Part shown: piece by piece, positions 1,386 through 22,078 of the stretch
Layout of the letters: every line of letters starts with the position of its first letter
Position numbering within the stretch: the stretch's first letter is position 1
Assembly: GCA_018402525.1 (NCBI GenBank)
Contig: JAGYIR010000011.1
Span: 310,001-374,000 of the forward strand
Source: Crocinitomicaceae bacterium
Lineage (GTDB): Bacteria; Bacteroidota; Bacteroidia; Flavobacteriales_D; Crocinitomicaceae
Length of the DNA: 64,000 nt
Direction: 5' to 3'
Program-made: the position numbers and the translations under genes
The notes under the pieces: generated by a model
The model's input: the letters and a program-made list of their open reading frames with translations, nothing else
What the model was told of the DNA's origin: nothing
The model's database searches: none

Positions 1386-3503
1386 ATGGACAGATACATA
1401 ACAAAACACATCAATAAACTGGTATTAGATCCTAATAATTATCGATTCATCGATAGTAAGGATTATACACTAGTGCCTGAAGAAAATATTGCTGAAGAAC
1501 GCATTCAAACCAGAACCTATAATTTACTCATAGGAAAGAATGAATCGCTTATCGAAGATTTGATTCTTAGTTTTAAGTCGAATGGCATCTTAAAACTGGA
1601 TCCTATCCAAGTGAAAACAATAGATGATGGAAGATTTTTAGTTGTTGAAGGAAACAGAAGGACTGCAGCTCTCAAGTATCTCTACAATGAATTCCTAAAA
1701 GGAAACGATGTAGGTGATTTAACCGAAACGGACTTTAAAAGTATAGAGATTGTTCAAATTTCTGATGAGCAGCCTATCCAGCATCTTATAACAATGGGTT
1801 TACATCATATTAGTGGAAAAAAGAAATGGAGTCCTGTAAATCAAGCCCAATTAGTTCACGACTTAAGGTTTAAGCACGGTTTAGAAGAAGAAGAGATATG
1901 CCGTAAACTGGCAATTACGAAGCATAATCTTCGCAGAAGTTTACGAGTTTTGGCGCTTATTGAATGTTACAAGGATTCGGATTTTGGTGATCAGTTTCAC
2001 ACCAATATGTATTCAGTTTTTGAAGAAATCATTAAGAATACCAAAGTGAAAAATTGGCTTGCATGGAATGATTTTGATTTAAAACCAGATCATCAAGAAA
2101 ATCTAGAAAACATATTCTCATGGATATCGAAAGAAGTTGTGGTGGATGAGGAAACCGATCAGAAAATAACTTATGAACCGATAATTACTAAAAGTCACGA
2201 GATTCGCGAGTTGTCGAAATTTATTGATGATGAAAAGGCGATAAATGAAATGGTTGAGGCGAGAAGCATTACCGCGGGTTTTGTATTAAGTGATGCCGTT
2301 GGTGAATCACGTCTTTTGAATGCTATAGATAACGTTGGGAAAGAGATTCAACAAGTGTTTAAGTTTAGCGAACACATGGCACAAGACGAATTTTCTAGGA
2401 TTGAAAACTTGAAGAATAAACTTGAGAAGTTATTGCCGAGCAACAACGCGTCAGTGGAAATTGTTCAGCGCAAAGCTTCTCTATATTTTAATGAAATTAA
2501 GTCACACTTTACAGATCTTCATATAACTAGTTATAGAAAGTTAGAAAATATTGACGTCAAACATTTAACAAGAGTTAATTTATTCGCTGGAGGAAATAAT
2601 ACGGGAAAAACATCCATTCTTGAATTAATCTTCCTTTTTACTCGTTTGAATACTATTCAAAGTCTCGTAGAATTGGAGAAGTTCCGGGGTCGCTTTTTTG
2701 GAGACTTTTCCTCACGCTGGTTTGATAAAGTATTTGTGAAAGAAATTAAATTGAGAGGCGAATTTAATGGTAAAGAATGTGAATTGCACATTTCAAAATT
2801 TGAAAGCGAAGAACCTTTTGAAAAAAGCCAATATTTAAATAGTATAATTTCGGAATCGCAAATTGAAGACGATTCCTTTTCTAGTACGATACATTTATTT
2901 GCAAATAAAGATCCAGAACTTTACTTTGAGAAGAATCAATTTCTCTGTGAAGCTACATTTAGCAGTCCATACAGATTTGACGATGATCTTCTAAGGCGTG
3001 CACATGGAAGAGCAGTAGAAGAGCAATATTTTGAAAGAATAATTGGATTCATACGTGAGAAAATGGATCCAAATATTCAAAAAATAGAGATGATTAATAT
3101 TGATGGGCAAAGCCGATTTATGGTTTCCGCATCAAATATCCAACATGCCATCGACATCACTAAATATGGAGAAGGGTTACAACGTGTTTTTGAAATCGCT
3201 CTTCTTATGGGATATAGTCGAAACGGAATAATATGTATTGATGAGCTAGATAGTGCACTTCACAAGAGTTTACTAATTGATTTTACAGCATTCATTCAAT
3301 CGATGGCGGTCGAATTTAATGTTCAAGTATTCTTAAGTACTCATAGCAAAGAGTGCATTGATGCCTTCGTAGAAAATGATTTTCCTGATGATGAGTTGAC
3401 AGCTTATTCCTTAACTGAAGATAATGGTAAAGTAGAATGTCGTTTTCTCGATGGAAACAAATTAAAGCGTTTAGTAGAGTCCATGAATATTGATATCCGA
3501 TAG
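1386..3503 (+). CDS. ParB-like domain fused to OLD/AAA-type ATPase, inside the hsd operon
   Basis: This is a 705-aa fusion. The N-terminal part resembles the ParB/Srx nuclease-like fold, with the EGNRRTAA box at about 88-95. It is followed by a ParB-like helix-turn-helix region at about 166-195. The C-terminal half is an SMC/OLD-type ATPase: Walker A GGNNTGKTS at 402-410, a signature-like KYGEG at about 594, Walker B IICIDE at 615-620 and a switch LSTHS at about 650-654. The gene lies between hsdS and hsdR and is three bases from a TOPRIM-like partner. ATPase plus TOPRIM partners inside type I loci recall RloA/RloB and PARIS AriA/AriB; the ParB-like front end is unlike AriA. It probably acts as a sensor or guard in phage defence, but this is inference. 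Confidence 0.8.
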   Translation: MDRYITKHINKLVLDPNNYRFIDSKDYTLVPEENIAEERIQTRTYNLLIGKNESLIEDLILSFKSNGILKLDPIQVKTIDDGRFLVVEGNRRTAALKYLYNEFLKGNDVGDLTETDFKSIEIVQISDEQPIQHLITMGLHHISGKKKWSPVNQAQLVHDLRFKHGLEEEEICRKLAITKHNLRRSLRVLALIECYKDSDFGDQFHTNMYSVFEEIIKNTKVKNWLAWNDFDLKPDHQENLENIFSWISKEVVVDEETDQKITYEPIITKSHEIRELSKFIDDEKAINEMVEARSITAGFVLSDAVGESRLLNAIDNVGKEIQQVFKFSEHMAQDEFSRIENLKNKLEKLLPSNNASVEIVQRKASLYFNEIKSHFTDLHITSYRKLENIDVKHLTRVNLFAGGNNTGKTSILELIFLFTRLNTIQSLVELEKFRGRFFGDFSSRWFDKVFVKEIKLRGEFNGKECELHISKFESEEPFEKSQYLNSIISESQIEDDSFSSTIHLFANKDPELYFEKNQFLCEATFSSPYRFDDDLLRRAHGRAVEEQYFERIIGFIREKMDPNIQKIEMINIDGQSRFMVSASNIQHAIDITKYGEGLQRVFEIALLMGYSRNGIICIDELDSALHKSLLIDFTAFIQSMAVEFNVQVFLSTHSKECIDAFVENDFPDDELTAYSLTEDNGKVECRFLDGNKLKRLVESMNIDIR

Positions 3504-3506
3504 ACT

Positions 3507-4334
3507 ATGAAGAGTAAAATAACAGCAGTACTCTGCGAAGGCCCACACGATGTTTTTTTTCTATCTAAATTATTGAAGTCAATTAATTTTAAGAAGTGTG
3601 AAGAAATTAAATTGAAAGATTTTCCACAGCCCATGGATCAGTTTTTGATTTCAGAAGCACAAAAATCTAATGTACAAGATGTAAATCTTACAGAAGTGAG
3701 GCAAGCTTTGTTGCCACATACTGTTCTAAAAAAGATTGATTCGGATGTTTACTTTTTCTTGTATGCCCTTGGAGGCGATTCTAGGTCTGATTTAAGAAAT
3801 AGAATATTGACAACGTTTGTAGATGCAACGCCTAAACCAGGTGAACTTACAGAGATATTCAATGACAGTAGCTTATCTGTAGCCTATTTTCTAGATGCGG
3901 ATGACATGGGAATTCCAACCCGAATAGATGAATTAAACAAAGAATTAAAAGCCATTTTCGGCGATATCGAGCCGATTGATGAAAACGGGAAAGTAATTGA
4001 GCATCACGGAATAGGTATTGGCGGATATATTTTTGCCGAAGAAGGTAAGGAAACTGGGAGGTTAGAAAATATCATTATTCCAATGATGCGAATTGATAAT
4101 GAAGTGATTTTTGACAATGCAACAATTTATATTGATAGTCACTTTGATAAAAGTCGAGTAAAGAAGGGCAATTTTAAAAAAGACAAATCCATTATCTCAG
4201 TTGCGGGTCAATTGCAAAGATCAGGATCATCAAACAACGTAGTGATTGACCACTCAGATTATATTACTAAACCAAAAATTGATTCACACCCTAGATGTCA
4301 GGAAATTGTTGATTTTTTTTCAAAGTTGATTTAA
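3507..4334 (+). CDS. TOPRIM-like protein, partner of the upstream ATPase
   Basis: This 275-aa protein carries the core TOPRIM signatures. There is a conserved Glu in a CEGPHD motif at about 10-15 after a hydrophobic first strand. A FLDADD motif lies near residue 129. The pattern fits the DUF3226/OLD-type TOPRIM group, which binds metal and in several defence systems is the nuclease effector. It starts three bases after the ATPase gene and ends two bases before hsdR, so it is almost certainly co-translated with both. I infer that it is the effector half of an ATPase-TOPRIM pair embedded in the restriction operon. It could instead be an accessory nuclease of the restriction complex. Confidence 0.7.
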   Translation: MKSKITAVLCEGPHDVFFLSKLLKSINFKKCEEIKLKDFPQPMDQFLISEAQKSNVQDVNLTEVRQALLPHTVLKKIDSDVYFFLYALGGDSRSDLRNRILTTFVDATPKPGELTEIFNDSSLSVAYFLDADDMGIPTRIDELNKELKAIFGDIEPIDENGKVIEHHGIGIGGYIFAEEGKETGRLENIIIPMMRIDNEVIFDNATIYIDSHFDKSRVKKGNFKKDKSIISVAGQLQRSGSSNNVVIDHSDYITKPKIDSHPRCQEIVDFFSKLI

Positions 4335-7710: not shown

Positions 7711-9429
7711 ATGAATCATATACTAAACAACCCATATCGCATTCTTGGATTACTTGTTGGATCAAAGGCTGCTCAACAAAATAGACAAGTTACAAGACTG
7801 AAAAAGTTTATTGAAGCTGAACAAGAACCTGAATCAGACTTTAGTTTCCCTGTCCTTGGATCAATTAATCGTTCTGTCGTTTTTATTGATTTGGCTGCTT
7901 CTCAAATTACCCTAGATACAGAAAAGATGTCAGCAAGCTTGTTTTGGTTTTATATAGGAAGTCCAATTACGGACGAACCTGCTTTCGAAAAATTAGCTGA
8001 TGGAAATTATGAAGAAGCAGGAGCAATTTGGTCAAAATTAACGTCAAAACATGATGTAACGTCTCGAAATGCTTCAGCATTTTGGAATCTTTCGACATTA
8101 TACTTATCCAAATATCAGAACAAAACAATTCTTGTTGACGAATTCGAATTAGGTTTGAAATTGAAGTTGAAATTCTTAGAAAGTGAATATTGGCATCTTT
8201 TGAAGGAACAAGCTACGGATGCAACATTTAAAATTTCAAAAGTAGAACTACAATTACTTTTTCTTAAAAATGTCTGTTTAGAAATTGCAAAACATGATGA
8301 CCTTTATTTCGATAATCTTCTTGAAATTGTAAGTCAAGAAGAATTTGAAGCAAAAGAAGAATTTTTAAAGTCTATTGTTCAGAAACCAATAGCAGAAATT
8401 GAAAAGCAAATTAATGCTTCAAAATCCAAGAGAAAGGCCAGCAAAGCTGTTGCTTTGAAATACGGTGAGAAATTATACCTTGAGACTGCAGAAAAATTGA
8501 AAATTATTTCAACGTTGTTGGGTAGATCGAATGTTAAATACATTTCAATTTCAGACAAGGTTTCTGATGAAATCCTCCAATGTGGAATTGACTATTTTTC
8601 ACATTATCGCGATTCGGCCACTGACCCTGGTCCTGAAGTAATAAAATTATTCAACGCAGCAAAAAGTAGGGCATTGGGTAATATTGCAAAACAGCGTTGT
8701 GCAGAAAATACTGAAAATTTGCAAGCATGGATTGACGACAAGCCGATGCGTGAAAAACAAACATTAGTTACAGCGGACTTAAAACTGTTAAAAAACCTTA
8801 TTGATGCATTTGAAGATCGCCAATCTTCAAACATAGGTAGTGCAGAAGCAATACTCAAAGAAGCAAAAAATTCACTTTCTAATCTGAAAAGAATCCTTGG
8901 TGCAAACGATGAACTTTATTTAGTAATTAGTACAAGGATAGCTGGAATTGCGCAAGGAATGTGTGTTTTCGAAATAAATCGATTGCAGCAAACAATTGAT
9001 AAAACATTAGATCAAGTTACCAAAATCGTACTAATTCTAAACTTAAAAGAGAAGGTTGATCAAGCATGGCAAGTAGTTATATCAATAGAAAATATGGATT
9101 TAAGTGATGAATTCAGATCACATTATTCCAGTAATCGGTCTTCGCTTAATGGTTTAAAAACTCAACTTGCAGGCATAAAAACTCCTTCTTCTAGTAGCTC
9201 AGGCGGCTGCTACATTGCCACAATGGCATATGGTGATTATGATCACCCACAGGTCAAGATTTTAAGAGAATTCAGAGATGAAAAATTATCTAAGTCTGCA
9301 TTTGGCAGATGGTTCATTAGAATATACTATCATTACTCACCCAAATTAGTTGTTAAGCTAAAAGACTCAACTGGAATAAATAAACTCATTCGCACCACAC
9401 TGAACTTAATCGTCAAATTAATAAAATAA
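7711..9429 (+). CDS. CFI-box C-terminal domain protein with J-like N-terminus
   Basis: This 572-aa protein opens with a short NPYRILGL motif, reminiscent of the start of DnaJ-type domains. The middle is a long, mostly helical region without a family I recognise, possibly TPR-like. It ends (from about residue 498) in a recognisable CFI-box type domain, [12 protein letters not shown] followed by LREFRDE and YYHYSP, after a serine-rich linker. Similar C-terminal domains occur on bacterial proteins linked to chaperone or AAA modules. It is the first gene of the operon, and its stop overlaps the next start by one base (TAATG). It is probably a co-chaperone or adaptor for the divergent Hsp70 two genes downstream; that role is inferred from context. 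Confidence 0.7.
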
Positions 9430-10325
9430 TGAGGAAAACCCTACTTGCAATACTTGTTGTTCTCGCAACAAATTCCTTTGCTCAAATCACGCAAACTGAT
9501 TTGGATAAAGAAATGAAAACTGTAGACAACAAAATCAGAAGTTTAAATTCAAAAAACGCTTCACTTGAAAATGAAGTTGGAACCCTCAAAACTCAACTTG
9601 ACGCGGCTCAGAAACAAATAGATGATCTTGAGTCCAAAACAGAGTCAAATAGTACGGCAATAAATGCCACTAGTGAAGAACTTGGTTTAAAAATTTCAAC
9701 AACTGAATCTACTACAAACCAAAAAATTACGGCTGTCGATCAATCGGTGAGTAAAAGTACATTATACAGTATAATTGGTGTTTTATTGGCTGTTCTTATC
9801 TCAGGTATTTTATACTTCCTTTTGAGCAAAAGACAAAAAGTTGATCGTTCAGATTTGATCGAAAAGCTCAGTAAAACTAAATCTTCACTTGAGGAAGGAT
9901 TGATCAAAGAATTTGGAAAACAAACGGAATTATTAGAAACACAAATCAAATTAATTGAAGGACAAAAATCAAACTCATCTGCTCCAGCTGCTGAAATTGA
10001 CCATTCATTAGCCTTGCGCGTTGCGGATGAAATTACGCTAATTGAAAGAAACATAAGTTTAATGGATTCTAGTGTTAAAGGACTTAAACAATTATCGAGA
10101 TCCGTGACAAAACTTCGTGATAATTTAATGGCAAACGGATACGAAATTCCTGAATTATTAGGTAAAAAATATGATCAAGGAATGAAGGTTATTGTAGTTA
10201 GTTCAATACCCGATGAAAGTATTGAAAAGGACCAAGAAATCATAACAAAAATTATTAAGCCTCAGGTTAATTATCAAGATAAGATGATTCAAACTGCGCA
10301 AATTGAAACTTTAAAGGGAATATAA
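9429..10325 (+). CDS. Exported coiled-coil protein with one membrane anchor
   Basis: This 298-aa protein has a signal peptide (residues 1-18, cut after SFAQ-like sequence). A periplasmic coiled coil rich in heptad leucine and isoleucine follows (about 22-105). One transmembrane helix at about 112-133 precedes SKRQK, and a mainly helical cytoplasmic tail ends the protein. The topology would link the cell envelope to the cytoplasmic Hsp70, whose gene starts eight bases later. I recognise no family. A sensor or anchoring role for the chaperone module is inference. Confidence 0.7.
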   Translation: MRKTLLAILVVLATNSFAQITQTDLDKEMKTVDNKIRSLNSKNASLENEVGTLKTQLDAAQKQIDDLESKTESNSTAINATSEELGLKISTTESTTNQKITAVDQSVSKSTLYSIIGVLLAVLISGILYFLLSKRQKVDRSDLIEKLSKTKSSLEEGLIKEFGKQTELLETQIKLIEGQKSNSSAPAAEIDHSLALRVADEITLIERNISLMDSSVKGLKQLSRSVTKLRDNLMANGYEIPELLGKKYDQGMKVIVVSSIPDESIEKDQEIITKIIKPQVNYQDKMIQTAQIETLKGI

Positions 10326-10333
10326 TAATAGCT

Positions 10334-12868
10334 ATGAGAAATAAAATTGATTACGGTATTGATTTAGGTACAACTAACTCAGCCATTGCAAGAATCGAAA
10401 ATGGTAAACCGGTTATAAAAAAGTCCGACACTCTAAAGGACACAACACCTTCTTGTGTAAGCTATAACAAGAAGGGCGATTCACTTGTTGGTGACACGGC
10501 CTTCAATGTAATGAAGATAGATAATGCTAGGGCATTGAAAAACAACAGTCTGAATGGTGGTAATTCGAATTCATTTATTGAATTCAAACGAACAATGGGT
10601 ACGACTCATTCTTATGAAAGTTCAAATTTGGGAAAAACTTTGAGCTCAGAGGAATTATCAGCAGAAGTTCTTAAAAAGTTAAAATCATACATAATTGATG
10701 AAAATGTTGATTCGGTAGTAATTACGGTACCTGCTAAGTTTTTAAATCCCCAAAAGGATGCAACAATGAAAGCGGCAAAACTTGCCGGCTTCAAGCATGT
10801 TGAGTTATTGCAGGAGCCAGTTGCAGCAGCAACGGCTTACGGGTTGTCATCGAAAAAGAAAGATGGTTATTGGTTAGTATTTGACTTTGGAGGAGGGACA
10901 TTTGATGGAGCCTTAGTGAAATCTGAGGAAGGAATCCTTTCTGTTAAAGACACTGCAGGTGACAACTGGCTTGGCGGTAAGAATTTAGATGATGCAATAG
11001 TTGATGAATTAATCATCCCTTATCTTAAGCAGAATTACGCCATTGATTTTGTTATTGAAGACGAGTCAAAACTACAAATGCTGCGAGATGCAGTGAAGCC
11101 TTATGCCGAAGAAGCAAAAAATCAATTGTCATTTAAAGAATCATTTAGTATACTTTCTAATCTTGGTGATTTACCTTTTGAAGATGAAAATGGAGAGGAG
11201 CCAGAAATTGATGTAACTGTTACTCAAACGGAATTAGAAAAAGTCTTGGCACCAATTTTTCAAAAGGCGATTGATATAACAAAGGATTTAATAAAACACA
11301 ATAACCTGAAAGGTAGTGATTTAGATGCATTGATTTTAGTGGGTGGCCCAACATTTTCTCCGATTTTGAGAAAAATGCTCAAAGAACAAATTTCTGAAAA
11401 TGTAGATACTTCAATTGACCCCATGACAGCGGTTGCAACAGGTGCTGCTTTATTTGCATCCACAATTTCTGTTTCAGAAGAAGTACTGGAAGTGAATAGA
11501 GATAAGACGAAACTTCAACTGGAGTTAAATTATGAAGCTACAACAGTAGAATTGGATGAAATGATCAACGTTTCCATTTTAAAAGATAAAACGGAAGGTG
11601 AAATTCCAGAAAAAGTATTTATTGAGCTTGTTCGGGGAGATGGAGCTTGGTCAAGTGCAAAAAAACAAGTTGGCGAAAAGAAAACATTGATCGACGTTAT
11701 CCTGAATGAAGGATCCAATCAATTTACTGTCAATGCCTATGACGACCATGGAAACAGGATTGACTGTCAACCGAACCAATTTACAATACTTCAAGGAATT
11801 GGTGGCTTGGAAAATATGACGGTACTTCCCTATAATATTGGTATTGCAAAGTATTTTGATACAGAAGAAAAGGATTTATTTTTGGATGTGCCAGGATTAG
11901 AGAAAAACAAAAAAGTTCCTGCTGTTGGAATTAGAAATGATTTAAAAACACGCAGTCAAATTCGTCCGGGAGTCGCTGAAGATATTATTCGTATTCCAAT
12001 TTACCAAGGGGAGCACAAGGCAGAAGGTACTAATCCTTTGCTAAATAATTGGGTTTATGATGTAATTATTAATGGAGAATCAGTGCCTAAATTAATTCCG
12101 ATAGGAAGCAATGTAGAAATAACAATTAAAGTAGATCGATCAGAAAAAATGCAATTTTCAGCATATTTTCCGGTAATTGATCATACAGAAGAATTAGAAA
12201 TTGATATTAAGAATCCTGCCCCTCCTGAAACTGATTATCTGAAAAAAGAAATTCATTTAGCAAAAAAGACTGCTCAAAAAGTGAATGATAATAAAACATT
12301 GAGTAATCTGGAAAATTTAGAATCTCAATTAGAAAAATCAGGAGGTAGTGCGGATGGAAAATTGCAAATATTGGATGGTTTACGCAAGGATTTATTAATT
12401 CTTGATGCGCAGGAAAAAGAGGTGGTTTGGCCTGAGATAGAAAAAGAGTTAAAAGCAGATTATTATGAACTTGAAGATTTAGTTGATAAAATCAAACTGG
12501 ATGAGGCTGCTCGTGAAATGCTAAACATGGAGAAGGTGAACGCATTCATGCTAGAAACGCATAGTAAGATTGAGAATTGTATTTCTGAAAAAGACATAAA
12601 GGAAGGTAAAGAATTGATTAGAAGCATTGCTCAACTAGATTTTGACTTGCGCAATGCAGTTACTGGAAACGCAATAGATGTGCAATATCTAAATCAATTG
12701 AATGACACATTCAATTCATTCCATTGGACGAATCCAAATAAGGCTAGACAATTAATTAATCAAGGACTTCAACAAGTAAATGAGGGTAGAACTGGAGGGG
12801 TTAGAAATATACTAATTGAAATTATTTCTCTTATGCCTGAGGATGAAAAACCTGAAACGCTAGTATAA
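10334..12868 (+). CDS. Divergent Hsp70 (DnaK-like) chaperone
   Basis: This 844-aa protein has a full actin-like ATPase domain in residues 1-380. Phosphate-1 GIDLGTTNS is at 8-16, EPVAAATAYG at about 161-170, phosphate-2 FDFGGGTFD at 183-191 and the adenosine motif LVGGPTF at about 335-341. The substrate-binding half is diverged and the C-terminus is a long charged helical extension. It is about 200 residues longer than housekeeping DnaK. In DnaK the adenosine motif continues with R-M-P; here it is F-S-P. The protein is therefore a specialised Hsp70, not the cell's DnaK. It sits centrally in an operon with a possible J-like protein and an AAA+ fusion, which suggests a dedicated remodelling machine. 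Confidence 0.9.
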   Translation: MRNKIDYGIDLGTTNSAIARIENGKPVIKKSDTLKDTTPSCVSYNKKGDSLVGDTAFNVMKIDNARALKNNSLNGGNSNSFIEFKRTMGTTHSYESSNLGKTLSSEELSAEVLKKLKSYIIDENVDSVVITVPAKFLNPQKDATMKAAKLAGFKHVELLQEPVAAATAYGLSSKKKDGYWLVFDFGGGTFDGALVKSEEGILSVKDTAGDNWLGGKNLDDAIVDELIIPYLKQNYAIDFVIEDESKLQMLRDAVKPYAEEAKNQLSFKESFSILSNLGDLPFEDENGEEPEIDVTVTQTELEKVLAPIFQKAIDITKDLIKHNNLKGSDLDALILVGGPTFSPILRKMLKEQISENVDTSIDPMTAVATGAALFASTISVSEEVLEVNRDKTKLQLELNYEATTVELDEMINVSILKDKTEGEIPEKVFIELVRGDGAWSSAKKQVGEKKTLIDVILNEGSNQFTVNAYDDHGNRIDCQPNQFTILQGIGGLENMTVLPYNIGIAKYFDTEEKDLFLDVPGLEKNKKVPAVGIRNDLKTRSQIRPGVAEDIIRIPIYQGEHKAEGTNPLLNNWVYDVIINGESVPKLIPIGSNVEITIKVDRSEKMQFSAYFPVIDHTEELEIDIKNPAPPETDYLKKEIHLAKKTAQKVNDNKTLSNLENLESQLEKSGGSADGKLQILDGLRKDLLILDAQEKEVVWPEIEKELKADYYELEDLVDKIKLDEAAREMLNMEKVNAFMLETHSKIENCISEKDIKEGKELIRSIAQLDFDLRNAVTGNAIDVQYLNQLNDTFNSFHWTNPNKARQLINQGLQQVNEGRTGGVRNILIEIISLMPEDEKPETLV

Positions 12869-12902
12869 AACGACTACTGAACATTGAATAACATCAGAAA
12901 GA

Positions 12903-14708
12903 ATGAGTAAAGGACTTTTACAGAAGAATTTTTCCATCAATGAAAAATACAATGTGCTGATGTTCATCAAGCACAGTGCAAACGCGGAAACATACCGAGT
13001 AAAAGGCGCGGATGGAAAATTATATGTCTTAAAACTTTTTAATTACTCAAAACTTCAACGTTCAGCGTTTGATGAACACAATAATGTCTTGGAAATTGAG
13101 ATTTTAAAATCAATAAATCATTCAAATGTTGTCCAATATCATGACTCTGGTGAAATTATCTTTGAAGGTAAAAAGTACGGTTTCTTGATTTTGGCTTTTA
13201 TTTCAGGAGAGACACTTGCAGAACGTATTTCACGAGAACCGTTCACTTCAATTTATGATATTAAACAAGTTATAATTGGTGTTTTGGAAGGGCTTCAATA
13301 TGTGCATACGCTTAAAGAACCAATAATACATAATGAAATCACTCCTCAAAACATAATGTTGGATTTGTCTGGTAATGTTCAAGTGCCCAAAATAATCGAT
13401 TTTGGTTTTGCAAGGTCGTTTCATAAATCAACAAGAACATATTCTAGAGAAGGATTAAACTTGAATTATGTTGCTTCTGAATGTTTCAATAATTTATTTT
13501 CACCTCAATCAGATTTATATTCTGTAGGTGTTTTATTTTTCCATTTACTATATGGTTTACCACCTTGGTTTCGTGATGTTTCAAAATTCATTTCAGACAG
13601 AACAAAGGCTGAAGATCTAATACTGGATGAAAGAACCAAACCGTTAATCTTTCCGGTTATTTCTGACAAGTTCATTGATTACGATGAAGACGTACAAAAA
13701 ATCTTGAAAAAAGCCCTGCAACAAGATTCTGATGAAAGATTTCAATCAGGTGAAGAATTTATTCAAGCCTTGAATGGAGAAATTGAAATAGAAGATCCTG
13801 ATACCACAAAAAAGATAAAATCTGATGAAATTCCTGAAAAGAAATTAAAGCAGAAAAAGGGATCAGGGAAAGGTTTTGATGGTATTGCCGGAATGGAGGA
13901 TTTAAAAGCTCAATTAAAATTAGATGTTATTGACGCTTTGCATAACCCTGAAGAGTATTCCAAGTATGGTGTTACAATTCCAAATGGAATGCTTTTATAT
14001 GGACCTCCAGGATGTGGAAAGACATTTTTTGCCAAACATTTTGCTGAAGAGGTTGGCTTTAATTTTATGTTGGCAACGCCATCTACTTTAAAAAGTAGAT
14101 TCATAAATGCGACTCAGGAAAATATCGCAAAAATGTTTGAGGAGGCAGAAAAGAATGCTCCGACAATTATTTTTATCGATGAAATAAATGAACTCCTTCC
14201 AAATCGAGATAGTGATGCTCATGAAATGGCTAAAAGTGCCGTGAATGAAATGTTAGCTCAAATGGATAGAACAGGAGAAAAAGGAATTTTTATTATCGGT
14301 GCAACTAACTATCCGGACATGATTGATCCTGCAATGTTAAGAGCGGGTCGTTTGGATAAGAAATTTTATTTACCTCCCCCCGATTTAAATGCTCGAAAAT
14401 CGATGTTCGAAATGTATCTCAAGAATCGACCGTTGGATTTTGGAATTGATTATGAAAAACTTGCAAATTTGACAGAAAATTACGTCTCATCGGACATTGA
14501 GTTTTTAGTTAATGAATCGTCTCGTGAGGCATTGAAAAATAAATCTAGAATATCGATGGGTATTTTGGAAGGTACGATTAAAAAAACAAAACCATCGGTC
14601 CCGCTTCATGAATTACAAAAATATGAAAGCATCCGTGCAAAAATGAATTCAGAAAAGTCATCGGATGATATAAAACCAAATGAACGAAATAGAATTGGGT
14701 TTAAATAA
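12903..14708 (+). CDS. Protein kinase-like domain fused to AAA+ ATPase
   Basis: This is a 601-aa two-domain protein. The N-terminal Ser/Thr kinase fold covers about residues 15-290. The ATP lysine is in VLKLF (K44), and DFG is at 166-168. The catalytic HRDxKxxN loop is replaced by HNEITPQN (143-150), so the catalytic Asp is Glu and the following Lys is Thr; it is probably a weak or pseudo-kinase. A lysine-rich linker (about 300-325) leads to an FtsH/Cdc48-class AAA+ domain. Its motifs are Walker A GPPGCGKT at 367-374, Walker B IIFIDE at 422-427, sensor 1 ATN at 467-469 and the RAGRLD arginine region at about 480-485. No FtsH protease motif follows. It starts 34 bases after the Hsp70 gene and is presumably part of the same transcript. 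Confidence 0.88.
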   Translation: MSKGLLQKNFSINEKYNVLMFIKHSANAETYRVKGADGKLYVLKLFNYSKLQRSAFDEHNNVLEIEILKSINHSNVVQYHDSGEIIFEGKKYGFLILAFISGETLAERISREPFTSIYDIKQVIIGVLEGLQYVHTLKEPIIHNEITPQNIMLDLSGNVQVPKIIDFGFARSFHKSTRTYSREGLNLNYVASECFNNLFSPQSDLYSVGVLFFHLLYGLPPWFRDVSKFISDRTKAEDLILDERTKPLIFPVISDKFIDYDEDVQKILKKALQQDSDERFQSGEEFIQALNGEIEIEDPDTTKKIKSDEIPEKKLKQKKGSGKGFDGIAGMEDLKAQLKLDVIDALHNPEEYSKYGVTIPNGMLLYGPPGCGKTFFAKHFAEEVGFNFMLATPSTLKSRFINATQENIAKMFEEAEKNAPTIIFIDEINELLPNRDSDAHEMAKSAVNEMLAQMDRTGEKGIFIIGATNYPDMIDPAMLRAGRLDKKFYLPPPDLNARKSMFEMYLKNRPLDFGIDYEKLANLTENYVSSDIEFLVNESSREALKNKSRISMGILEGTIKKTKPSVPLHELQKYESIRAKMNSEKSSDDIKPNERNRIGFK

Positions 14709-14724
14709 TTACTAAAGCAAAGAC

Positions 14725-15225
14725 ATGATGGATAGAATTGAATTTGAAAAATTATTGCTTAAAACAGCTTTCTGTTGTTTAGCTTCTGATGGGAATATTG
14801 ATAAGCGTGAAATTGATTTGATCAAAGTTGTTTTCAGTGAATATGAGCAGTATCAAGGTGTTAATTTTGATGATAAAATCAATTCCTTCATTAAGATTTA
14901 TAATGAAAAGGGTAAGGATTTCTTTACTTTCTACTTTGATATTTTAAAAGAGGAATCTTTTACTTTTGAAGAAGAATTAGAAATTATTGATATTGCTATC
15001 CGAACCATTCAGGCAGATGAATTAGTAGAATATTCAGAAATCAAATTCTTTAAAATTATACGTCATAATTTAAAATCAACTGACGAACAAATTCTTGAAA
15101 AATTTCCTGACATTGAATTGTTTTTGGAGGAAGACATTGTAACTGAATCTCCCTTGGATAAAATAACTAAACAGTATTTTGAATCTGTCGATCTCCTCAA
15201 ATTTGAACATTTAAAAATTGAATAG
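14725..15225 (+). CDS. TerB-like protein
   Basis: This 166-aa acidic helical protein matches the tellurite-resistance TerB fold. It shows an early CCLASDGNIDKREIDLI motif, whose Asp/Glu pattern binds metal in TerB, and a second helical half with EIIDIAIRTIQADE. TerB-type domains are often associated with phage-defence and stress modules in bacteria and can act as membrane-linked scaffolds. It is the last gene of the chaperone/AAA operon, 16 bases after the kinase-AAA gene. Its stop codon runs straight into the second copy of the module-end repeat. Confidence 0.75.
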   Translation: MMDRIEFEKLLLKTAFCCLASDGNIDKREIDLIKVVFSEYEQYQGVNFDDKINSFIKIYNEKGKDFFTFYFDILKEESFTFEEELEIIDIAIRTIQADELVEYSEIKFFKIIRHNLKSTDEQILEKFPDIELFLEEDIVTESPLDKITKQYFESVDLLKFEHLKIE

Positions 15226-15324: not shown

Positions 15325-16302
15325 ATGTCACAAATCACTGACCCAATTCCACAAGAAATCCAAGTCGAGCTCCAGCAGCTAAACCTAGATTTAGACCAAA
15401 AAATCCCAGCCAAAAAGCTAGACAAAAACCTCCTTATTGCCACCTGGAACATTCGCGCATTTGGAGACCTAACAAAAAAATGGCAAAGCCAGGAAGATGA
15501 TTCACCAAAAAGAGATTTTCATTCAATCTCATGCATCGTAGAAATCATAAAGCGTTTTGATGTCATCGCAGTACAAGAAGTAAAAGGAAACATTCGAGCT
15601 TTGCGTTATGCATTAAAACTATTGGGAAATAACTATTCATTAATCCTTACAGATGTAAATCGTGGGAAAGTGGGGAATGATGAACGAATGGCCTATATTT
15701 TTGATACCCGTAGAGTACAAATGTCAGGATTAGCATGTGAATTAGTTGTTCCAGAAGAATGGCAAAAAAGTGTTGGAGAAGAGGTAATGAAAGAACAATT
15801 TTGTCGCTCTCCTTATGCTGTTTCATTCAAGTCAAATGAACAAACATTTATCTTAGTAACATTACATATATTGTATGGCAAAAAATCTACAGATCGAATC
15901 AACGAATTGAAAGGTATTGCCAACTGGATGGCAGATTGGGCAAAAGACCTCAACGCTTATCATCAGAACCTCATCACACTTGGAGATTTTAACATAGACA
16001 AACGAGGAGACCTATTAAACCAAACCTTCATCGAAAGCGGTCTCTTCGTTCCGCCATCACTTCAATCCCAAGAAGTAACCCGCTCCATATTTGATGAAAC
16101 AAAATACTATGATCAAATCGCTTGGTTCCAAAACAAAAAGGGAGTAAATAGTCTTTCTTTAGAATACAACACTGGAGGCAATTATGATTTCATGCAAACC
16201 TGTTTAATCAATCGTTCATTAACCAAAGTTCAAAAATCGTGGATGCTTTCAGACCATTATCCTTTATGGGTGGAGTTCAATATTGATGAACATAGGAAGT
16301 AA
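15325..16302 (+). CDS. Endonuclease/exonuclease/phosphatase (EEP) family protein
   Basis: This 325-aa protein has the full DNase I-like EEP catalytic set: Asn in ATWNIR, the metal-binding Glu in VQEVK, the D-x-N of LGDFNID and the SDH motif near the C-terminus (MLSDHYPLW). These enzymes hydrolyse phosphodiesters in DNA, RNA or phospholipids. No signal peptide is seen, so it probably acts in the cytoplasm. Position after the Hsp70/AAA operon and between two copies of the module-end repeat suggests a defence-associated nuclease; the substrate cannot be told from sequence. Confidence 0.85.
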   Translation: MSQITDPIPQEIQVELQQLNLDLDQKIPAKKLDKNLLIATWNIRAFGDLTKKWQSQEDDSPKRDFHSISCIVEIIKRFDVIAVQEVKGNIRALRYALKLLGNNYSLILTDVNRGKVGNDERMAYIFDTRRVQMSGLACELVVPEEWQKSVGEEVMKEQFCRSPYAVSFKSNEQTFILVTLHILYGKKSTDRINELKGIANWMADWAKDLNAYHQNLITLGDFNIDKRGDLLNQTFIESGLFVPPSLQSQEVTRSIFDETKYYDQIAWFQNKKGVNSLSLEYNTGGNYDFMQTCLINRSLTKVQKSWMLSDHYPLWVEFNIDEHRK

Positions 16303-19978: not shown

Positions 19979-20164
19979 TTACGATTTAATCCGATTCCAA
20001 ACCCATTTCAGCAATACACTCACCAGAAAACTGGCAGTTGCTCCAACTACCGCTAGGACGACAGTCTTTAGATAATCCTGCGAATCTATTTGCGCAGCCA
20101 CGGTAAACACCGTTCCGGTTACTGTGCCTAATGCTGTTGTATGATCATGATGAGGTACGTTCAT
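19979..20164 (-). CDS. Small membrane protein, holin-like size
   Basis: This 61-aa protein has one or two hydrophobic segments (about 15-27 and 33-55) and ends in a basic tail (LLKWVWNRIKS). Length and layout resemble small holin-type or peptide-toxin membrane proteins, but I recognise no family. It is the last gene of a four-gene minus-strand cluster led by the 249-aa unknown protein. Confidence 0.55.
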   Translation of the reverse strand: MNVPHHDHTTALGTVTGTVFTVAAQIDSQDYLKTVVLAVVGATASFLVSVLLKWVWNRIKS

Positions 20165-20176
20165 TTTTCGTGGGTT

Positions 20177-20389
20177 TTAATCTTCACAAACTTCTGCAGC
20201 TGAACAAGCTTTAGAAGTCAAAACCAATTTAACTTCAACCAATTCAGTTTCGTCGGTTATTTCCTCGTTGTAGTCAACTTCAACCAGATTAACCTTTCCT
20301 GATAACTCAGAACCCGCTTTGAAGCGAGGTCTTCGACGTGATCGGACATTTACAATCAAATCACTTTGAGAACACTTTTCTGCATTCAT
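20177..20389 (-). CDS. Small unknown protein of the 249-aa cluster
   Basis: This is a 70-aa soluble protein: a basic patch (VNVRSRRRPRF, about 14-24) precedes an acidic half (VDYNEEITDETELVEV). It has three cysteines. No family is recognised. It lies 12 bases upstream of the small membrane protein and is presumably co-transcribed with it. Confidence 0.5.
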   Translation of the reverse strand: MNAEKCSQSDLIVNVRSRRRPRFKAGSELSGKVNLVEVDYNEEITDETELVEVKLVLTSKACSAAEVCED

Positions 20390-20441
20390 ATTTTCAAAAA
20401 ATTTAGTCCGAGCTCTTGTATCGCTCGGACAGATTCAACAC

Positions 20442-20756
20442 TCAAATTCCTAGAGCGGCACCTCCGCCTAGGTCGTCATTGCAGTCATTGCTTTCCGCTA
20501 TCGCTGCCTGACTCATCGCTGATGCGACAGCTCCACCAACTACCAGGTAACCACCCAACGCTATCACACCTGCTGGCAAAGCCACTGGAGCAGCGAGAAT
20601 GGTAGCACCCGCAGCAGCCACAGCCACTCCAACGATGCGCAACTTTTTAAAGAACGGTGGAGTATCCACTCCACAGCGCTTAAAGTAAGAGCGCAACTTA
20701 TTTAAATCGCCCGAAGCGTTGCTAAGGCGATCCTTGATTTTTCCCTTATTTTTCAT
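20442..20756 (-). CDS. Small Ala/Gly-rich membrane protein
   Basis: This 104-aa protein has a charged N-terminal helix (about 1-40), then two hydrophobic Ala/Gly-rich segments (about 42-66 and 67-86) and an acidic, Gly-rich tail. This is typical of a small two-helix membrane hairpin such as a channel or holin-like protein, but no family is recognised. It is the second gene of the minus-strand cluster. Confidence 0.55.
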   Translation of the reverse strand: MKNKGKIKDRLSNASGDLNKLRSYFKRCGVDTPPFFKKLRIVGVAVAAAGATILAAPVALPAGVIALGGYLVVGGAVASAMSQAAIAESNDCNDDLGGGAALGI

Positions 20757-20789
20757 CTTCTGATGATATTAAGATTTAACATTCACTTT

Positions 20790-20862
20790 AGTAATTCAGC
20801 CTTGCTCCCCGAGCTGAGTATGTCGAGGGAGTTCCCCGAGCCTGCCGAGGGGGAGAATTACT
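20790..20862. repeat. Nested REP-like palindromes, probable terminator of the 249-aa gene
   Basis: Outer arms AGTAATTC (20790-20797) and GAATTACT (20855-20862) enclose two hairpins, TCCCCGAGCTGAGTATGTCG-AGGGA and CCCCGAGCCTGCCGAGGGG. The right outer arm overlaps the stop codon of the 249-aa gene. The hairpins are relatives of the palindrome at 19413. Confidence 0.65.
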
Positions 20863-21607
20863 GAATCTCCACAATACTCAACGCATTGTACGCACCATTT
20901 TTCAGTACATACTGTGCACCATTCACTTCTTGGAAGAACTCAATCATCAGAAGGAACATATCGGTACCAGTACCAGCTGCTGCAGCTACAGGTGTCAATA
21001 CAACATCTGTCGAAGTCCCATCTAGTGGGAGATTCACTGCGTTCGTCTCCTGAACATCAGTTTCACCAGTCGCAAAGTCCACCTTCGCCCACGCTCCGCG
21101 TAGGGTAATGTGCGTCGCTCCTTGTGGTACACTCACATCATTAATTGGAACGAGTCCGTTAATGGTGATTACTCCAGTAGCTGGATCAACCGAATAAGGG
21201 TTGTAAAGAATAGAACCCAAAATCGCCGCGATGTTGAAGTTGAAACCTTTCAGTTTCGCTTTCGCTTCAGGAAGTGCGATGCCTACACCTACATTTCGCT
21301 CACCTCGAATACTGGTACCATCCAGATTCTTGATTTGCGTCATGAGTTTCGTCAACCGCGATACAACTTTGCTATCCGATGCATTCTGCATCATCGTGCG
21401 AATTGAATCACGTAACAACTTCCCTGAACTCGCCGATGAACCAAACTCTGCTCCATTCTCCCGCGTTCTAACAAACGCAGGATCATTCGCAATTCGTTTC
21501 GCATCCACAGACGTTTTCATACGCGCCAAGTTCCCATCCTTCGTTTTATAGAAGTTCACGTTATCCAACGTACCCTTCAATTTAATTAAGCCGGTTTGTC
21601 TTGCCAT
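20858..21607 (-). CDS. ~250-aa protein of unknown function found in Bacteroidota
   Basis: This 249-aa protein starts MARQTGLIKLKGT, followed by NFYKTKDGNLARMK and NDPAFVRTRENGAEFG. From memory, this N-terminal pattern recurs in proteins of similar size in many Bacteroidota genomes, but none has a function I know. The N-terminal half is charged and helical; the second half (about 120-249) is beta-rich and Ala/Thr-rich. There is no signal peptide. It heads a cluster of three smaller genes with membrane segments and faces a divergent small putative regulator at 21884. A phage-derived structural or secretion-related origin is possible; nothing proves it. Confidence 0.6.
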   Translation of the reverse strand: MARQTGLIKLKGTLDNVNFYKTKDGNLARMKTSVDAKRIANDPAFVRTRENGAEFGSSASSGKLLRDSIRTMMQNASDSKVVSRLTKLMTQIKNLDGTSIRGERNVGVGIALPEAKAKLKGFNFNIAAILGSILYNPYSVDPATGVITINGLVPINDVSVPQGATHITLRGAWAKVDFATGETDVQETNAVNLPLDGTSTDVVLTPVAAAAGTGTDMFLLMIEFFQEVNGAQYVLKNGAYNALSIVEIQ

Positions 21608-21883
21608 TGCTTTATGTTTTTATGATTCGGCCCGTTTCCAGGTCGGCCGTTTCACCTCATCGTTGCACTCGAGTTTCCCGGGAATTGAATTCACCCAAAA
21701 GTGCTTCGACAAGACAAACTTGCAACCTTTTAAAACACGATACAATAGACCACTTCCGTTCCATAAACTTTGTGCAGAATTGTGCCGATTTTGCACATTG
21801 CATCGCCCTCAAAAGCACTTAAATTTGTGAGAACTATTACCCGCCTTTTAAGTATGGGTTAAGTATGGATAGAGTATGAAAAC

Positions 21884-22078
21884 ATGAGAAATAAGCGCCT
21901 AATAATTTACCCAAAAGACATCATGTTAATCACAGGCAAAAGTGAACGCTATTCTCGGTACCTATTAAAACGAATTAAAAAACACCTGAACAAAGAAAAT
22001 CACCAAGTGGTTTCTACTTCAGAATTTTGTCAATATATGGGGTTGGATATTGAAGAGGTAATAACAACTTTTATTTAG
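21884..22078 (+). CDS. Small putative DNA-binding regulator
   Basis: This 64-aa basic protein (IYPKDIMLITGKSERYSRYLLKRIK at about 8-32, then EFCQYMGLDIEEVI) is shaped like a short winged or excisionase-type helix-turn-helix protein. It is divergently oriented to the 249-aa gene across a 276-base spacer in which I see no other gene. A regulatory role for the cluster is inference. Confidence 0.5.
   Translation: MRNKRLIIYPKDIMLITGKSERYSRYLLKRIKKHLNKENHQVVSTSEFCQYMGLDIEEVITTFI

Follow-up and report, generated by a model that had tools for sequence, protein, structure and literature searches.

Conflict systems centred on GAP1-N2 GTPases, as predicted by Kaur et al. (2020), include HSP70, GrpE and DnaJ-FNIII proteins according to the available part of that article (PMC7159879). 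Hsp70-like proteins (CnuD) have also been described in the restriction-linked CoCoNuT systems of type III, in which some compound operons carry AAA+ and kinase genes (PMC11090510, accessible sections). Moreover, a host chaperone is required for phage sensing by bNACHT25 (PMC12169576, in the passages available). The transmissible locus of stress tolerance (tLST) is a mobile chaperone island with an AAA+ member that comprises a small Hsp, ClpG, FtsH and others and has been described mainly from beta- and gamma-Proteobacteria; the word Hsp70 does not occur in the part of PMC8290217 that was accessible. Here we describe a five-gene operon at positions 7711-15225 of a 64,000-nucleotide stretch from a Crocinitomicaceae bacterium (assembly GCA_018402525.1, contig JAGYIR010000011.1, positions 310,001 to 374,000), the whole of which is called the window below. 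The evidence somewhat favours the view that the operon encodes a dedicated Hsp70/AAA+ chaperone machine that sits at the inner membrane, moves horizontally and most likely serves as an antiphage system.

Results

All five genes lie on the forward strand and received working names in this analysis. CFI (7711-9429) is an open reading frame (ORF) of 572 amino acids (aa), followed by MEM (9429-10325, 298 aa), a transmembrane GrpE-like protein, and HSP (10334-12868), an 844-aa Hsp70 (PF00012) whose ATPase half is canonical and whose C-terminal half diverges. KAAA (12903-14708, 601 aa) joins a kinase fold to a classic AAA+ domain (PF00069 and PF00004), and TERB (14725-15225, 166 aa) is a TerB-like protein. 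The gaps between the genes are -1, 8, 34 and 16 nucleotides (nt), with 99 nt from TERB to the next gene, in agreement with the close packing on one strand described in a first-pass annotation of this DNA.

Sixteen of the 21 loci read in detail contain all five genes in identical order and on the same strand (the window, L035-L037, L041-L048, L059 and L129-L131, including the close relatives L041 and L042). In L043-L045 additional genes are located between HSP and KAAA, and the five-gene order is otherwise kept. L038, L040 and L132 are cut by contig ends, and L133 is rearranged; its genome carries MEM separately, at the end of a different contig. Counted outside the 21 loci were L058 (Hsp70 and KAAA, no match to the CFI or MEM models), L063, L064, L066 and all AAA-only loci, as well as the KAAA-only loci L049-L057, L060-L062, L065 and L068. 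The residue censuses below comprise 18 sequences, omitting L038, L040 and L042 because of contig ends or near-duplication, and 17 for MEM, as L133 is without one. Pairwise identities of the genes co-vary: for nine of the ten gene pairs at most 5 of 500 permutations reached the observed value.

Full-length relatives of KAAA were found in 8 of 200 genomes of the same family, the source genome included, and more were found in Bacteroidota among the best 80 matches listed from a collection of 84,980 species. A phylum search of 395 genomes detected KAAA in 7 (E 1e-80), HSP in 8 (E 1e-100) and the MEM head domain in 7. The head-only search was adopted for MEM because three of the nine matches obtained with the full-length protein (G441, G330, G272) were weak and fell in the coiled-coil half. 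Six genomes had KAAA, HSP and the MEM head in common (hypergeometric P ~1e-11 per pair, relatedness ignored). In this set the MEM head adjoins operon genes in five genomes, is located at a contig end in the sixth carrier, G413, and is weak in the variant G400. The non-shared cases are a KAAA-only locus in G583 and variant Hsp70 loci in G416, G375 and G400, in each of which a small GrpE-like gene directly precedes the Hsp70 gene. These counts may be underestimates, since few top candidates were scored per genome (two for HSP) and the Hsp70 of G400 (2.9e-119 in a later search) was missed. Thus, the co-occurrence that the first-pass annotation proposed to look for is above chance, and judged from gene order and distribution the five genes are a conserved unit. 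A housekeeping operon was ruled out by the sparse occurrence of KAAA (8 of 200 and 7 of 395 genomes) and by the separate DnaK and GrpE that the source genome keeps elsewhere.

With 6 carriers among 395 phylum genomes the operon is accessory, and sequence comparison indicates that it is horizontally transferred. DnaK of the source genome is 88.6% and 80.1% identical to that of the same-family carriers G148 and G060 and 66.4% identical to that of G210. The operon Hsp70 follows the reverse pattern, with 50%, 49% and 65% identity to the respective copies. One copy of the operon is located on a plasmid of Haliscomenobacter hydrossis, and in Empedobacter sedimenti (L043) a MobA/VirD2-type relaxase gene lies directly 5' of it.

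The nucleotide-binding domain of HSP (10355-11545, + strand) matches PF00012 over residues 8-404 of the protein (E 6.3e-71), which also matches DnaK in the PDB (E 4.7e-61). D10, K85, E161, D184, T189 and D191, which we take to be ATPase-site residues by their roles in DnaK, are invariant in 18/18 sequences; on this basis the ATPase site is read as intact. For the C-terminal half the likeness to the substrate-binding domain of DnaK is faint, with a score of 29.5 (20 shuffles reached at most 21.95) and a reported probability of 8%. KAAA contains a Pkinase domain (PF00069, E 1e-34) and an AAA domain (PF00004, E 5.3e-37). In a motif census, the AAA+ core (13989-14375, + strand) showed Walker A and B motifs, sensor 1, arginine fingers and an aromatic pore loop. 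Walker A, Walker B, sensor 1 and the arginine fingers are invariant in all 18 sequences, as is the presence of the pore-loop aromatic residue, which is followed by Ile or Val in 17. In the kinase fold (12990-13745, + strand) the catalytic aspartate of the HRD motif, the mark of an active protein kinase, is replaced by Glu in the window, as it is in nine of the 18 sequences overall; five have Asp and four Gly, Asn or Ser. The AAA+ remodeller fused to a kinase fold that had been proposed from the sequence is thereby supported, with a degenerate fold, and KAAA is probably an unfoldase that still works and whose kinase fold is mostly dead.

MEM consists of a signal-like N-terminus, a predicted periplasmic coiled coil, one transmembrane segment (approximately 9744-9827, + strand, by hydropathy, with K/R-rich residues after it) and a GrpE-like domain of helices and a strand-rich head (9996-10322, + strand, by hhalign and Foldseek). 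All 17 MEM sequences, the window's included, show the internal hydrophobic segment followed by two to four K/R, and all 17 have a signal-peptide-like start by eye. This topology is expected to place the coiled coil in the periplasm and the GrpE-like part in the cytosol. In hhalign, 18 MEM C-termini compared with 30 GrpEs of the phylum scored 34.6 (probability 69%; E 4.4e-5 as a single comparison), the alignment being collinear through the last strand. As controls, 30 column-shuffled GrpE profiles reached at most 15.4 and a reversed profile 12.6. The AlphaFold model of MEM (pLDDT, the per-residue confidence, 80.4; pTM, the predicted template modelling score, 0.46) shows a very long helix, then two helices and the strand-rich head. 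A Foldseek search with this model against 350,542 PDB chains returned GrpE or GrpEL1 at all of ranks 1-11 (E 9.6e-5 to 0.024), and the first match after these had E 0.15. In a comparison of full-length MEM with PDB sequences, coiled-coil matches swamp any GrpE signal. MEM thus looks like a dedicated GrpE-like exchange factor of remote homology; it is called GrpE-like and not a PF01025 member because that profile is not reached. The exported coiled-coil membrane protein of the first reading was correct as to membrane and predicted coiled coil but incomplete, as the cytosolic part is GrpE-like.

CFI carries a CFI-box C-terminal domain at 9208-9411 (+ strand; NF041770, E 7.6e-23, residues 500-567). 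The C-termini of the family (n = 18) comprise five with the CFI-box, ten with a transmembrane segment and three with neither. The protein begins NPYRxLG, and its N-terminus scores 23.05 against a J-domain profile over 26 columns (50 shuffles reached at most 14.85). The model of CFI is helical (pLDDT 82.8), and the family profile finds engineered TPR proteins first among PDB sequences (E 2.3e-7, about 55 positions with no single passing stretch). CFI is likely a client or adaptor subunit at the membrane. TERB resembles TerB (PF05099, E 0.0047) at 17.7 bits, which is under the gathering score of 24.4 bits, and is therefore called TerB-like; the similarity noted at first stands, but below the Pfam cut-off. 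Its family profile reaches PDB 2h5n with E 3.4e-4 over 17 positions only.

Defence genes neighbour the operon at 8 of 18 loci and belong to restriction-modification (R-M), BREX, Gabija-like, RloB, NACHT and GmrSD types. R-M genes are found at the window, L048 and L129, BREX with nSTAND1 at L035, RloB with AAA_21 at L037, GmrSD at L039, a Gabija-like pair at L046 and NACHT-FGE at L132. This count is a lower bound, because 17 of 105 non-window neighbours were annotated individually with Pfam, L035 additionally via its record annotation. In a blind test at 1e-15, 237 PADLOC models were matched by 114 neighbour proteins within 8 kb (nine from the window) and three by 114 proteins from other regions of the carrier genomes, 4 of 18 control regions being short contigs; the contrast gives a direction and not a rate because many models are redundant for the same proteins. 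Accordingly, the closeness to defence genes noted in the first-pass annotation holds at eight loci or more.

Copies of the GrpE-type head were found in a collection of 2.9 million viral contigs, which was scanned with the MEM family profile and then with a head-only profile. The first comprises residues 1528-1599 of a 2478-aa protein on a 98.6-kb contig (tblastn E 2e-11 among candidate stretches; hidden Markov model (HMM) 86.9 bits, E 8.3e-29 in a very small search space). Its hhalign score is 147 to MEM and 32.5 to GrpE. It is 35-53% identical to MEM heads and closest to two copies from gut-derived metagenome-assembled genomes (MAGs). The 2478-aa protein has no Pfam or PHROG match; its neighbour carries ART-PolyVal, and a virion structural gene is located upstream. 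The second head, from the head-only scan, comprises residues 1052-1125 of a 4456-aa protein on a 42.7-kb contig (tblastn E 2e-14; HMM E 1e-23 with the search confined to its locus, a very small search space). This protein is DarB-like antirestriction by PHROG (1206 bits, residues 1137-3692), also carries ddrB-ParB, ART-PolyVal, LPD23 and SNF2, and is encoded near a terminase small-subunit gene. PMC5512222, in the available text, proposes that polyvalent proteins are injected alongside phage DNA and act against the defences of the host; the word GrpE does not occur there. The position of the heads in or next to counter-defence-type proteins fits the idea of an injected decoy.

The viral scans revealed no relatives of HSP or TERB. 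For KAAA they gave one fragment (L034), matches confined to the AAA part, and two contigs that carry a large part of the operon and may be host or otherwise non-viral DNA. L253 (IMGVR_UViG_3300031993_006635) has a short MEM form of 128 aa and a Sel1-repeat CFI relative; L254 (IMGVR_UViG_3300037483_001825) has an altered order and a shortened KAAA of 359 aa.

Smaller variant operons, in which a small GrpE-like gene directly precedes a related Hsp70, were seen at L151, L152, L154, L155 and L252, on Pseudomonas and Aminobacter plasmids and in Bacteroidota; L151 additionally has a TerB-like gene. The Proteobacteria plasmid copies lie near annotated AAA ATPase/helicase genes (Aminobacter) or insertion-sequence genes (Pseudomonas). 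The small GrpE-like proteins of variant loci score 16.2 and 15.0 against GrpE, which is unconvincing, and 29.2 and 23.6 against MEM. The big protein of L152 is CFI-like (74.3) and that of L155 weakly J-like (26.6); those of L151 and L154 are neither.

Several further genes accompany the operon. A gene for a membrane protein of about 100 aa adjoins or lies inside it at L036, L038, L043, L129 (a DUF6804 protein) and L130, and is one gene off on the opposite strand at L131. Similar genes occur in L151 and L254, and tblastn found no relative in the window; the gene is a lead to a possible accessory member. A lipoprotein-like gene is shared by L043 (9027-9704) and L044 (7762-8412; 62.7% identity), and an SH3-type gene by L036 (8735-9277, SH3_3 detected) and L130 (16305-16964; 61.1% identity). 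These exported-looking products, encoded inside or just before the operon, are possible envelope sensors. At L044 (8457-9977) a second, degenerate-looking Hsp70-like protein of 506 aa, with an ATPase half and a short tail, is encoded between HSP and KAAA. In rumen and gut Bacteroidales-type MAGs (L049-L051, L053, L055, L056, L060), with no Hsp70 relative found nearby, each of seven KAAA-like genes precedes one for a similar-looking protein of 125-138 aa, presumably YbjN-like. The pair is possibly a separate two-gene system.

In the window, the operon is located between a type I R-M operon upstream (HsdM, ending at base 76, HsdS and HsdR) and an endonuclease/exonuclease/phosphatase-family (EEP) gene downstream (15325-16302), as first described. 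The EEP nuclease was dropped as a sixth member, as it has no relative at the other compared loci (blastp, E 1e-5). Two proteins are encoded between HsdS and HsdR (1386-4334): an AAA_15/AbiEii-like ATPase whose front looks ParB-like by eye, and one of the DUF3226 family. The GC content is 0.33-0.38 across 1-18 kb and mostly 0.36-0.41 past 26 kb, with exceptions at 18-26 kb. Just 3' of the island, 20001-22000 has a GC peak of 0.446 and few long ORFs. ARAGORN found no tRNA in the window.

Discussion

It is well supported, on sequence grounds, that the five genes encode a dedicated, membrane-tethered Hsp70/AAA+ protein-remodelling machine at the inner membrane. The membrane-linked chaperone machine suggested by the first-pass annotation is upheld by the transmembrane segment in 17/17 MEM sequences, the GrpE-like nature of MEM, the Hsp70 and the AAA+ motifs in 18/18. 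Travel between bacteria, frequent defence neighbours and viral copies of one part together suggest that this is probably an undescribed antiviral system, and we consider an antiphage function of the operon probable.

As a hypothesis for the mechanism, the J-like CFI and the transmembrane MEM would place the Hsp70 at the inner membrane, where an envelope state or a phage protein would trigger the cycle. At the membrane, the J-like subunit would capture a phage protein that is either entering or freshly synthesised, and the GrpE-like subunit would couple the state of the envelope to nucleotide exchange. The Hsp70 would then hand its client to the ring formed by KAAA, which would unfold or disassemble it so that infection is halted. 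The viral head would be a decoy that probably competes with MEM for the Hsp70, occupies it and jams the cycle. More tentatively, and as a proposal whose chances fall a little short of even, this would be a new antiphage class driven by a complete Hsp70 cycle. A transmembrane GrpE-like exchange factor would clock this cycle across the inner membrane, and the cycle would be coupled to an AAA+ unfoldase gated by a pseudokinase. Phages would answer by exchange-factor mimicry, using GrpE-head decoys that form part of large polyvalent proteins delivered along with the phage DNA.

Several observations weigh against an antiphage machine of this kind. Defence neighbours prove company, not function, and many of the 237 PADLOC models are redundant, the HsdS of the window alone matching 28. 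No killing effector is evident in the operon. The viral head was found in two contigs only, with no match in 50,697 GenBank phages. TERB is absent at two loci (L038, L039), and the co-variation of MEM and TERB is weak (38 of 500 permutations reached the observed value). The same-family carrier G072 lacks the reversal of identities (DnaK 85.1%, operon Hsp70 67%). For MEM, just four of the eleven GrpE rows in Foldseek reach E 0.001, and the superpositions are poor (TM score 0.17-0.28 by query length, root-mean-square deviation above 20 Å in nine of eleven). PF01025 does not match MEM, its sole match in the source genome at E 0.001 being on another contig, and the 50 VIA-align rows for the MEM model contain BAG domains and helical bundles instead of GrpE. 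The J-likeness of CFI is weak: 0 of 18 N-termini contain the HPD motif of a J domain, and a Foldseek search with the CFI model gave nothing at E 0.001, with P58(IPK) at E 0.018. The CFI-box protein with a J-like start in the first-pass annotation is thus secure in its box and weak in its start.

The chief alternative is that the operon encodes a mobile stress disaggregase that works like tLST. The core parts are chaperone parts, no toxin or nuclease is evident, the operon is accessory and mobile, and mobile chaperone islands exist (PMC8290217, in the text at hand). However, 8 of 18 loci have named neighbours of the restriction, BREX, Gabija-like, RloB or NACHT kinds, the viral head copies lie in or beside counter-defence-type proteins, and neither ClpG nor a small Hsp turns up in the family lists of the operon proteins (lists that covered 25 of 46 families in the case of MEM and 25 of 32 in that of KAAA). 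We regard this explanation as unlikely, though it is the one to be taken most seriously.

The membrane topology and the large multi-subunit defence complexes adjoining some loci would also suit a chaperone for the assembly or maturation of such neighbours (R-M, BREX) or of a surface structure, which would not itself be defence. Yet the neighbouring system varies by locus while the five genes persist, and 10 of 18 loci showed no such neighbour, a minority of the neighbours there being annotated; this role is quite improbable. Least probable of all is that the viral head recruits the chaperone for phage folding or replication and that the operon is a host factor and not defence: phages such as lambda do require host DnaJ/DnaK (available part of PMC12169576), but the head is of the operon type and not of the housekeeping GrpE type (hhalign 147 against 32.5), and a phage could hardly rely on an operon so rare (6 of 395 genomes).

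If the antiphage interpretation is true, bacteria defend themselves by unfolding proteins with a dedicated Hsp70/AAA+ machine, which would explain the presence of some Hsp70s in defence islands. GrpE, a soluble co-chaperone, would have been turned into a transmembrane signal transducer. In addition, mimicry of a chaperone component by phages could be put to the test here, and heterologous defence assays would gain a further target. Were the stress explanation to prevail, the transmembrane GrpE-like protein of the operon would still represent an unusual coupling of the envelope to Hsp70.

A description of this five-gene set was not found in the literature searched, which had most subscription papers and bioRxiv outside its scope, so that the absence is weak; the term CFI-box-CTERM appears in no paper within it, again with most subscription papers outside. 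The parts of PMC8195603 and PMC7824862 that were available contain no such gene set. Within these limits the first-pass annotation, which knew of no named system with this set, is supported, and the operon does not correspond to IetAS, MADS, CoCoNuT, tLST or GAP1-N2 systems. IetAS and MADS (mad6) have AAA+ and kinase domains related to KAAA; its NCBIfam scores remain far from their cut-offs (IetA/IteA 106.4 of 510 bits, Mad6 99.7 of 460 bits). The sensing by bNACHT25 likewise uses a chaperone cycle, although there it is host DnaJ (PMC12169576, accessible portion), whereas the operon brings a dedicated chaperone set. As regards tLST, the family lists of the five proteins contain neither ClpG nor a small Hsp20, the neighbours at other loci being partly annotated.

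The operon shares with the DnaK-DnaJ-GrpE and ClpB bichaperone the logic of an Hsp70 with an exchange factor and an AAA+ partner. In contrast to DnaK-DnaJ-GrpE, the exchange factor is transmembrane and distantly GrpE-like, the J-like partner is without HPD and the C-terminal half of the Hsp70 is divergent. Where the bichaperone has ClpB, the operon has KAAA, in which one AAA domain, of the FtsH/Cdc48 type, is joined to a dead kinase fold. The Walker A-like motifs of CnuD are described as degenerate (PMC11090510, sections seen), whereas the ATPase residues of HSP are intact. The family lists of the operon proteins include no McrB-type GTPase, McrC homologue or HEPN nuclease, with neighbours at other loci partly annotated. 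The GAP1-N2 systems resemble the operon as predicted conflict systems with an Hsp70 that has its own GrpE and with a DnaJ fusion (PMC7159879, available part). No GTPase, tubulin or FNIII family is among those listed for the five proteins, with the coverage for MEM and KAAA given above, and the operon has a membrane-spanning exchange factor, an AAA+/kinase fusion and a TerB-like protein instead. A conservative reading could place it, as a variant, with the chaperone-based conflict systems that PMC7159879 predicts. The GAP1-N2 conflict systems and the CoCoNuT Hsp70-like proteins are its closest predicted relatives, the defining parts of both being absent from the operon, and its novelty lies in the arrangement of parts that all come from known folds.

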